From the NCBI GenBank assembly GCA_018673175.1, contig JABHDF010000071.1, positions 1 to 33,020 on the forward strand: a stretch of 33,020 bases of DNA, written 5' to 3'. Of the stretch, positions 23,533-27,183 are shown one piece after another (the first letter of the stretch is position 1; each line of letters begins with the position of its first letter). The notes under the pieces were generated by a model. The model saw only the letters and a list, made by a program, of their open reading frames with translations, did no database searches and was not told the DNA's origin. The position numbers were made by a program, and so were the translations under genes. This DNA comes from Rhodobiaceae bacterium. GTDB taxonomy: Bacteria > Pseudomonadota > Alphaproteobacteria > RS24.

Positions 23533-24600
23533 TTAGTACTTTGGGTTGGAAATTTCGACAAGCCTCCGACAGGCCCATTGAATTGAGAAATAATACACCG
23601 GTATGAACGCTAAAAATCCGATGATACTGATCGCTTCGCCGAATTGGACCGTCAAGCTAAAACCCAGCCAAAAAGCCCCGACCGCAGATAAAATCAAAAT
23701 GAGTAAGGTTCGTCGTGCCGAAAACCCATTATCCATAATTCTATGATGTATATGTGTTCTGTCCGGCGTCATAGGCGAACGACGGTCGGCGAGCCTGCGA
23801 ATTGTAACAAGCACGATATCGGTAACTGGGATAACAATGAGCCATAGGCATAGAGATACGGGAATTTTCGGACCTTCAACGAGCCGCGAAATGTCTTGGC
23901 TTGCGGAAATGATAGTATTTGAGACTATGAGGCCGATCAGCATGGAGCCGCTGTCGCCGAGGAAAACCTTGCGACCGTTAAAAATTTGTAGATTAAACAC
24001 AAGAAACCCCGCGATGGAGCCTGAAAACAAAACAGCGAAAACAGCAAAGTCAGGCGGTGTTGCACCATGAATCAGGTTGAAAGCAAGTTGAGCATGAGTC
24101 AGTGTAAGTAACGCCATGCTAGCGGCTAAGCCATCAATACCGTCAATCATATTGAAGGCATTGATAATCATCACAATGAAAAAGACTGCTATGATCGAAT
24201 GTAAACTGGCAAAGTCTGGCGATCCAAATGTTTCGTTGAAAATGCCAATATTAGAAACTGCCAGGTTTTCGCCCATAACAACAATGGTGGCAGCAGCAAT
24301 ATGGAAAACGAGCTTTATGACCGCAGGCACAGGTTGTCGGTCGTCAACCATTCCTAGAATAACGAGCATGGTTGCCGCCATTATCCCGCCCCAGGGAGGG
24401 TTTGGAATAAAAATCAAAAGTCCTACAACCACCACAAGCCAAATTACAGGCCCCCCGATGAGAGGTATTTCACCTTTATGCTGTTTACGCGCAGACGGTT
24501 TGTCGACCAGCCCTAAGCGGGTTGCTAGGGGTATTAAGGCAATAACAAGTGCTGTTGTAAGCAACGACGCAATAACCGAAATGTAAATTAGGGAGAGCAT
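23533..24600 (-). CDS. WecA/MraY-family glycan-1-phosphate transferase
   Basis: This polytopic membrane enzyme of 355 residues transfers a sugar-1-phosphate from a UDP-sugar to undecaprenyl phosphate, starting synthesis of a polysaccharide repeat unit. WecA/MraY motifs occur in order: KPSARKQHKGEIPLIGGP (34-51), Asp86-Asp87 in GMVDDR for Mg2+, NAFNMIDGIDG (147-157), FLGDSGS (213-219) and the cytoplasmic DRTHIHH (280-286), typical of the WecA side rather than MraY. About ten membrane helices are expected. The start at 24600 follows AAGGAAA. It lies 10 nt after a Wzz fragment and in the same transcript direction. A second, broken copy of this family lies at 26816-27183. Confidence 0.93.
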   Translation of the reverse strand: MLSLIYISVIASLLTTALVIALIPLATRLGLVDKPSARKQHKGEIPLIGGPVIWLVVVVGLLIFIPNPPWGGIMAATMLVILGMVDDRQPVPAVIKLVFHIAAATIVVMGENLAVSNIGIFNETFGSPDFASLHSIIAVFFIVMIINAFNMIDGIDGLAASMALLTLTHAQLAFNLIHGATPPDFAVFAVLFSGSIAGFLVFNLQIFNGRKVFLGDSGSMLIGLIVSNTIISASQDISRLVEGPKIPVSLCLWLIVIPVTDIVLVTIRRLADRRSPMTPDRTHIHHRIMDNGFSARRTLLILILSAVGAFWLGFSLTVQFGEAISIIGFLAFIPVYYFSIQWACRRLVEISNPKY

Positions 24601-24610
24601 AAATATTTCC

Positions 24611-24876
24611 TTACTGAGCAGCCTGATTATGTCGACCCAACATAAAATGTCTAATCAAAGTGAGGCTTGAGTTCAGCCCGTTATATAGGTCCATTTGAGT
24701 GCTGTTGTGGTACAGAAGTTTTAAGATCGCCTTTTGGCCTGGCTCATAAATAAATACCAAAAACGCGAAAACCGGTGCAATAATCAATGCGCTCAACCCG
24801 GCATCAACCATTTGCCATTCCAGATAATTTGGAATAATTCGACAAGATCGATTTCGTCATAGTGTACTTCTGTCAT
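24611..24876 (-). pseudogene. Wzz-type chain-length determinant, frameshifted N-terminal fragment
   Basis: An excellent ribosome site (AAGGAGAGG, 24881-24889 on the plus axis) leads to an ATG at 24876 and a 27-codon frame ending at 24793. Its EIDLVELFQIIWNGKW is the N-terminal signature of Wzz co-polymerases and parallels EIDLKELIVTLWEGKL of the intact Wzz at 32181. A one-base deletion near 24800 then shifts the frame. Restoring it gives KWLIAGLSALIIAPVFAF, a good first membrane helix, continuing to a stop at 24611. The total would be about 88 residues against roughly 300 or more for a Wzz; the periplasmic domain and second helix are missing. The downstream 66-codon frame (from 24811) might be expressed alone, but most likely this is a relic. 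Confidence 0.75.
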
Positions 24877-24933
24877 AAAGCCTCTCCTTACCGTATTTTG
24901 TTATATGCTAGTGAAACACTAAAATGAACGTTG

Positions 24934-24964
24934 ATTATTGATATTTTTAATTATTGATATTTTT
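24934..24964. repeat. 15-bp direct repeat, two copies, 16-bp period
   Basis: ATTATTGATATTTTT occurs at 24934-24948 and again at 24950-24964. The pair lies between the 19-codon ORF and the Wzz fragment, in their common leader if they are cotranscribed. It could be a pair of regulator sites or simple AT-rich slippage. Confidence 0.6.
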
Positions 24965-24996
24965 TGGCTTTTTTGGATACGCCGAGGCGCGGGATA

Positions 24997-25056
24997 TTAA
25001 GTGATTACAAATAATCCGAACGCTGCATAGCCGATGAGTGAGAAGTAAATGTACAT
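24997..25056 (-). CDS. Candidate 19-residue hydrophobic peptide ORF
   Basis: The ATG at 25056 is preceded by GGAG with 5-nt spacing, and the frame encodes MYIYFSLIGYAAFGLFVIT followed by TAA. The peptide is uniformly hydrophobic, like a minimal membrane-spanning peptide. Its ribosome site lies in one arm of a perfect 7-bp hairpin. It reads toward the Wzz fragment and WecA gene, so it could be a leader peptide or an independent small membrane protein. No family is recognised, and with 19 codons chance cannot be excluded. Confidence 0.4.
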   Translation of the reverse strand: MYIYFSLIGYAAFGLFVIT

Positions 25057-25058
25057 GA

Positions 25059-25102
25059 TATCTCCATATTATATAGGAGATACCTTTCTATCGAATAGAA
25101 AG
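25059..25102 (-). promoter_or_regulatory. Tandem hairpins, one covering a ribosome site
   Basis: On the minus strand, CTTTCTAT-TCG-ATAGAAAG (25102-25084) is a perfect 8-bp hairpin. It is followed by TATCTCC-TATATAATAT-GGAGATA (25082-25059), a perfect 7-bp hairpin whose 3' arm contains the GGAG ribosome site of the 19-codon ORF. This geometry is that of a translation-control leader. The loop contains TATAAT, so the same bases could instead be a -10 promoter box. On the plus strand the first hairpin is followed by TTTTT (25103-25107) and could terminate transcription, though no plus-strand gene ends there. Confidence 0.5.
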
Positions 25103-25227
25103 TTTTTGCAAGTTAATTATGGTATATATCTATTTAGTAGGCACACAAATTTGTTAAGCGTTTTGTTGTTATGAGTTTTGGCTCTTTCATTTAATGCGGA
25201 TAAAGTTATCAAAAAAAGCGTTTGTAA

Positions 25228-25521
25228 ATGAGTAAGTTAGGCACTTATGCGGAACTTAGTGCAGTGTTGCATGCGATGAAAGAAGATATTGACTTAGGTA
25301 ACGATACCTCTGCTGAAAAAAATATACTTTCAGCTGTTGCTCAATTGCAAAATAACGAGCCCTGAGGCATGTTTGTGCAATCGAGCGAAATTAAAATGCA
25401 TCCACTTTGCGCTCAAATGCCTAATCCTAGCTTCTTTAGAGCTTTGAAAGAGCTTCTGGATGATGGCGCTATCAGCCTTCCGATGAATCGGAAAAAAGGG
25501 CTTTACCGACTAGGGGCCTAA
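25228..25521 (+). pseudogene. Small regulator-like gene interrupted by in-frame TGA
   Basis: An ATG at 25228 opens a 45-codon frame (MSKLGTYAELSAVLHAMKED...) ending in TGA at 25363-25365. The same frame continues after one codon (GGC) with an ATG at 25369 for 50 codons (MFVQSSEIKMHPLCAQMPNP...) to TAA at 25519. Because both parts share one frame, they read as one 97-codon gene with a premature stop. The second part, SFFRALKELLDDGAISLP then KKGLYRLG, looks like a recognition helix and wing of a winged-helix protein. Alternatives are two coupled small genes, TGA readthrough or a sequence error. Family not recognised; a regulator of the adjacent polysaccharide genes is plausible. Confidence 0.55.
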
Positions 25522-25590: not shown

Positions 25591-26184
25591 ATGATTAAAA
25601 TAATAAATCGTTATCGTTTTAGTAAAGAAGTTTTTACAATAGTTTTCTCAAGCTATTGTATCTGCTTTTTGTTTGTAGAATTATTGATTTCACCTCTTCA
25701 ATTATTAGCTGGCTTGCCGCAAACGAGCTACGCATCTCTTATGTACCTGCCTCATGGTATCCGGGTTCTATCTGTATGGCTTTATAGAGAGAAGGCGGTT
25801 ATCCCACTATTTTTTTCGCATTTATTTATTTATGTCGTGTTCTGGCTTGAGGGGCTCACTGTCGCCGAAAATATAGCCATGGTCCTTGTAGGTACCCTTT
25901 GTGCGCCCTGGGCGTTTCTTTTCGTTGGCTGGATTGGCTTTGATGTATCGGTAAGAAATTCAAAAATCATGCATTGGCGTTCGATTTTATTAGTTGGTTT
26001 CCTTGCCTCAATTATCAACTCGCTTGGTAACTCATTTATTTTATCGCCACATATCGAACCATCCTTGCATCTACTCACAGCATCTACATATTTAATCGGC
26101 GATACTTTGGGTGTGTTCATTCTGCTCCTTATTTTATTATTTGGTTTCCGCCTGGCGCGGAAAATAAGTGTCTTTCACACCTAA
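25591..26184 (+). CDS. MASE1-like integral membrane protein, no output domain
   Basis: This 197-residue, very hydrophobic protein has about six membrane helices. The stretch YLPHGIRVLSVWLYREKAVIP and the end helix YLIGDTLGVFILLLIL resemble the MASE1 sensory membrane domain, which usually precedes a histidine kinase or GGDEF domain. Here the protein stops right after the last helix (RLARKISVFHT), so it would be a stand-alone sensor or channel-like module, or a truncated one. The ATG at 25591 is preferred; an in-frame TTG at 25549 would add 14 polar residues. The ribosome site is weak. It lies between the interrupted regulator gene and the NusG-like gene in AT-rich DNA. Confidence 0.6.
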   Translation: MIKIINRYRFSKEVFTIVFSSYCICFLFVELLISPLQLLAGLPQTSYASLMYLPHGIRVLSVWLYREKAVIPLFFSHLFIYVVFWLEGLTVAENIAMVLVGTLCAPWAFLFVGWIGFDVSVRNSKIMHWRSILLVGFLASIINSLGNSFILSPHIEPSLHLLTASTYLIGDTLGVFILLLILLFGFRLARKISVFHT

Positions 26185-26815: not shown

Positions 26816-27183
26816 TCATAGGCCACGACAAGCCTGACCGAATTCGCTAAATAGAGCTTTCCTAGTTTCTATGGCGAGCCTAAATAAGGGGTTTACATCC
26901 TTGATGTCGTCCCAAATGCCAATGGCGAGGATTAAACCTAAGGGCAAGATTGCAAGGCCAACTGTTTCAAGCTTAGGAAAGGCGGAGAACAAGCCGGAAA
27001 AATAGACAAATGCTATAATAGGCCCACCTAGAAGGGAAATTTGCCCGTTATTGGGGAGTTGCGTTCATCTGGCTCATCAATAAGTCCAAATTTGCTAGCA
27101 TAGAGCCTTATAAAATAGGCAATACCAATGACACTAATGACAGCTAACACGCCGAGATAGAGAAGTGACACAAGTTGAAACAT
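26816..27183 (-). pseudogene. WecA-family glycan-1-P transferase remnant
   Basis: From an ATG at 27183 the minus strand encodes a membrane helix and FGLIDEPDERN, the WecA N-terminal loop. A one-base deletion in the GGGG run at 27053-27056 (plus strand) shifts the frame, which then continues GQISLLGGPIIAF, another helix and IGIWDDIKDVNPLFRL, matching the DD metal motif, to a stop at 26816. Aligned to the intact copy at 23533-24600, it has only the first third: NAFNMIDGIDG, GDSG and HIHH are absent. It is therefore truncated regardless of the frameshift. It lies tail-to-tail with the NusG-like gene (8 nt apart) and on the strand opposite to the export genes. Confidence 0.85.

Follow-up and report, generated by a model that had tools for sequence, protein, structure and literature searches.

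The closest described systems for the locus analyzed here were small winged-helix regulators of the MarR, TrmB, and PadR types, the MASE1 membrane sensory domain (PF05231), and pseudogenes with an internal stop; the locus was also compared with translationally coupled split genes and selenoproteins. MarR dimers are not built with a single helix preceding the domain and no helix following it. As for interrupted frames, one source (PMC11017572) documents assembly errors as an origin of internal stops, and another (PMC10666635) gives the cost of a +2-nt gap in three E. coli pairs as 5, 20, and 70% of coupling.

The locus lay in a 33,020-nt stretch of DNA from a Rhodobiaceae bacterium (contig JABHDF010000071.1), hereafter the window, and its plus strand displayed at 25228–25521 a frame of 45 codons opened by the ATG at 25228, then TGA–GGC–ATG–49 more codons–TAA (25519–25521). 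The TGA (codon 46; 25363–25365) was the sole internal stop of the frame: no second stop was found in the 96 sense codons, and the reverse strand of the region was closed in the register translated. The original prediction of a frame open on either side of a single TGA, with an ATG two codons later, was confirmed from the window sequence; an open frame alone is weak evidence, but the homology found on both sides of the TGA made it more than chance. Very probably, this region was one winged-helix regulator gene, which stands beside a MASE1-like gene in relatives and is here cut by a single nonsense codon, rather than a programmed two-product gene. Based on frame, alignment, and orthologue model, its modules were assigned as follows: (i) a first half (25228–25365, +) that comprises an N-terminal helix and, from the winged-helix domain, helix 1, and that closes with the TGA, which fell in the loop between helix 28–42 and strand 50–51 of the orthologue model, and (ii) a second half (25369–25521, +), starting with the ATG 3 bases past the TGA and containing helix 2, the recognition helix, and the wing. 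Ahead of the regulator, 24601–25227 (about 630 bases) had little coding content, and a 66-codon hydrophobic frame without Pfam match was present at 24611–24811 (−).

The regulator was searched for in 97 genomes and then in the 28 genomes of the family (the order comprised the same 28). It was present in seven of these 28 (its own genome, G001, G002, G008, G011, G017, and G022), and five of the seven contained it as an uninterrupted single frame, the two interrupted copies being those of the window genome and G022. Read through the TGA, the window regulator aligned gap-free, with no indel, over 95 positions with the five intact orthologues, which showed 57, 48, 47, 47, and 40% identity to it. 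The search was also applied to 385 genomes drawn from the class (own included), of which six were matched, namely its own and five others, and all 8 places in these five other genomes were free of internal stops (weakest E 0.0014). An E 0.0059 match in a 385-codon frame of G093 and others at E 0.06 and worse, all from the 97-genome search (E <= 1), were left out of the counts. Whether orthologues were fused had been proposed as the check on the original prediction, and fused they were, in the five intact family copies and in the remoter places alike. Two unrelated genes were ruled out as a candidate because one homologous frame spanned both halves; going by the relatives, 25228–25521 is one gene, not two. 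Rescue by a paralogue found no candidate, since the window genome otherwise gave no match better than E 0.068, this one with the second half.

The sequence comparison of 13 of the 15 regulator copies (the interrupted G022 copy and that of G247 were omitted) revealed, for the first half, a helix beginning with conserved LT/LSxxE and, for the second, a stretch resembling a recognition helix plus a G-x-Y wing end. Pfam matches among these 13 members were weak: TrmB in six (best E 1.8e-4), MarR_2 in two (3.6e-4), and PadR in one (1.1e-4), with the MarR family profiles PF01047/PF12802 reaching at best 3.9e-4 (1/13 members) and 3.6e-4 (2/13) and never matching the window protein. At up to E 10 in Pfam and NCBIfam, neither half nor the read-through window protein was matched, except for SHOCT (E 0.12) with the second half, and PDB searched by sequence gave E 0.87 and worse.

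AlphaFold2 was run on the intact orthologue L028 with five sequences as input; the best model had a mean pLDDT of 74.7, and the remaining four ranged from 39.4 to 59.4. The best model contained helices 3–20, 28–42, 52–56, and 66–78, short strands 50–51 and 82–83, and strand 92–95, and at moderate confidence it followed the winged-helix element order helix 1, strand, helix 2, recognition helix, and two-stranded wing. Winged-helix chains of PDB superposed on about residues 24–96 (VIA-align): the top match was 4mqv_A, a C-terminal domain of RPA32 (64 residues aligned at 1.5 Å, Z 10.2), and further matches included BlaI 1sd4_A (Z 8.7) and MarR 3cjn (Z 8.1), and entries of BlaI, PefI, BpsR, and MarR spanned 8.1 to 8.9, the BpsR alignment being poor (6 to 7 Å). 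Foldseek alone was weak on this model (best E 0.011). The best structural rows were mostly eukaryotic winged helices, and thus the model names a fold, not a family. Because the solved chains aligned over about residues 24–96, codon 46 was placed inside one winged-helix domain, and going by the model, the TGA would split a single DNA-binding domain between its first helix and the remainder. The first half would be the N-terminal helix plus helix 1 of the common domain, so that two products would each be incomplete. The location of codon 46 within the domain was the chief finding that spoke against two independent products. The description of the frame as regulator-like therefore gained support from the winged-helix fold of the orthologue model, and the helix-turn-helix/wing pattern expected of the second half was borne out by the recognition helix and wing there; the "independent" first half was not, this half being a long N-terminal helix plus helix 1 of the same domain. 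The regulator is best read as an unnamed winged-helix protein of about 96 residues, an ordinary small regulator.

Of the 34 positions that do not vary among the five intact relatives, the window copy retained 27, as a working split gene would likewise; by halves, 11/16 were kept in the first and 16/18 in the second, and the corresponding values for the intact G017 copy were 11/19 and 16/23. In relative-rate tests over the whole protein, unique changes numbered 10 vs 6, 10 vs 11, 9 vs 10, and 10 vs 10 (p 0.45 to 1), and by half, the non-independent counts were 6 vs 2 or 3 (first) and 3 or 4 vs 4 to 8 (second), with p >= 0.23. Faster decay of one half was rejected on these values, and the looser first half is a hint, not a result. 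Lacking excess substitution, the window regulator would carry a young stop, one produced by assembly error, or one that is tolerated; with one nonsense codon and no second lesion, the stop would be young if real. Synonymous sites were mostly saturated, which made dN/dS unusable, and at 0.2 neutral changes per site, the probability of the frame remaining free of stops would be 14 to 20%, which left the age bound drawn from missing further stops weak.

The original prediction had allowed for stop-and-restart or readthrough giving two products, the ATG lying 3 bases past the stop; neither gathered positive evidence. Restart, with ribosomes ending at the TGA, resuming at this ATG, and the fragments assembling into one winged helix, is unlikely. 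Restart can work over distances such as this +3-nt gap (PMC10666635), only the window copy has the ATG (the five intact relatives carry GAG, GAA, or GAT there), and the 20-base stretch upstream of it reaches −5.6 kcal/mol in pairing with the anti-Shine-Dalgarno, a stronger pairing than that ahead of 8 of the 9 other window genes; however, the GAGG lies 1 base from the ATG, a spacing too short for a usual Shine-Dalgarno. An ATG within two codons of the stop had an expected frequency of 3.9%, and any ATG, GTG, or TTG one of 13.3%, as calculated from codon use in nine window genes, and a start codon shortly after the stop was only mildly unusual. Conserved residues kept in both halves, a protein evolving at the normal rate, and a cut falling in a loop of the orthologue model would all suit a split regulator, but the split would divide one small domain, leaving the recognition helix without helix 1, and all 5 family and 8 class copies were fused, so the conserved split arrangement of a translationally coupled split gene was found in no relative. 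G022, the sole other interrupted copy, had its break in the same loop as the window copy, for which chance gives about 5% to within 2 codons: its halves lay in different frames, with the switch in an A run, on a contig named with a coverage of 3.49. From the last in-frame stop to the conserved part of its second half, no ATG, GTG, or TTG was found, and thus restart of the kind considered for the window copy is excluded for G022. Neither the proximity of the ATG nor the shared loop counts as strong evidence for a split. A functional split would amount to an unusual winged helix occurring naturally in two pieces, and the G022 cut would hint that the loop tolerates cutting; that UGA-GGC-AUG naturally divides the domain between helix 1 and the recognition half into two peptides that reassemble, giving matched dosage or extra control over the MASE1-like partner, is quite improbable.

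Decoding of the TGA by selenocysteine or a suppressor tRNA, giving the full-length protein, is still harder to credit. The frame does run on in register past the TGA, but both SelB and tRNA-Sec, as a selenoprotein would need, were nowhere over cut-off in the assembly, an absence that its 89.9% completeness keeps from being absolute: selB (TIGR00475) had eight matches below the curated cut-off, presumably other GTPases, and tRNA-Sec (RF01852) scored at best 44.9 against a gathering score of 47, and the eight scanned among its 11 sub-threshold matches were all ordinary tRNAs (two Ser, two Leu, Tyr, Gly, Cys, and Asp). Many shuffled sequences folded as well as the RNA past the TGA (z −1.24, 0.22, and −1.09), the intact relatives had E, A, E, S, and A in the TGA column and neither cysteine nor tryptophan, and nine other window genes (3486 codons, in frames chosen open) showed no sense TGA, three of them ending in TGA.

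A single regulator gene cut by a nonsense codon remains the preferred reading. The codon would have arisen in the winged-helix domain, within the loop that follows helix 1, the likeliest cause being a recent inactivating mutation (some two thirds of this reading) and the next likeliest a consensus error of metagenome assembly (some one third). On a true TGA allele, translation would end at codon 46, and the fragment released by the ribosomes would lack the recognition helix. The same stretch had lost a gene before, as indicated by remnants near the regulator: two truncated pieces in different frames at 27174–27055 and 27052–26834 (−; tblastn E 4e-5), taken by us to derive from a WecA-like glycosyl-phosphate transferase (26834–27174), with an intact homologue at 23533–24600 (−). 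If the case is ordinary, as seems likely, its annotation would be corrected to one interrupted gene.

In the window, the regulator was followed at 25591–26184 (+) by a gene for a MASE1-like membrane protein (alternative upstream opening at TTG 25549), and this neighbor recurred. By tblastn, it adjoined the regulator or lay one frame off in the 5 intact family copies and in 5 of the 8 class copies; G062 had a weak candidate (18% identity), and no such partner was seen around the regulator of G247 or the second copy of G238. Six of the 28 family genomes contained the MASE1-like gene, and all six also held the regulator (hypergeometric 2e-5, uncorrected for shared ancestry), while G022, with its frameshifted regulator, had none at E <= 0.001. 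The aligned partners shared invariant P-H, R, W, N, and G-D positions in a hydrophobic protein. Of the two neighbors named in the original prediction of control of the locus, the MASE1-like one thus recurred, but the NusG-like one looked local, as tblastn at E <= 1 did not find it in the 14 loci read around relatives, each of about 4.5 to 18 kb. In relatives, the regulator probably controls the MASE1-like membrane gene, and it may act on that gene in response to a signal. Literature searches on MASE1 with regulators or exopolysaccharide, on reinitiation, and on pseudogenes yielded nothing on a regulator/MASE1-like module, which is not proof of absence.

Two variations of the pair were observed: (i) three pairs in one class genome, G404 (L054, L055, and L056), each with the membrane gene first and two of them followed by what we take to be integrase-like frames, and (ii) an extra frame of about 137–151 codons, winged-helix-like by eye, inside the pair in L002–L004 (G002, G001, and G008), which was absent in the window, G011, and G017. 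The conserved pair, present in more than one alphaproteobacterial family, was a useful by-product of the analysis and is a testable membrane-signal-to-transcription module.

Compared to known systems, the locus displayed the following likenesses and differences. The regulator shared with small MarR/TrmB/PadR-like regulators the helix–strand–helix–helix–wing order and, in its relatives, the weak Pfam matches, but the window protein had no Pfam or NCBIfam family assignment and was interrupted, and compared to MarR dimers, the regulator had one helix ahead of the domain and none after. Its partner resembled the MASE1 membrane sensory domain in being hydrophobic, in its invariant positions, and in matching PF05231 in 4 of 9 aligned members (best E 8.6e-7), but it had about 200 residues with no attached output domain, and the window copy was unmatched in Pfam. 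The interrupted frame had in common with internal-stop pseudogenes, whether real or assembly-made, that it was conserved apart from a single nonsense codon, and it differed from them in being free of a second lesion.
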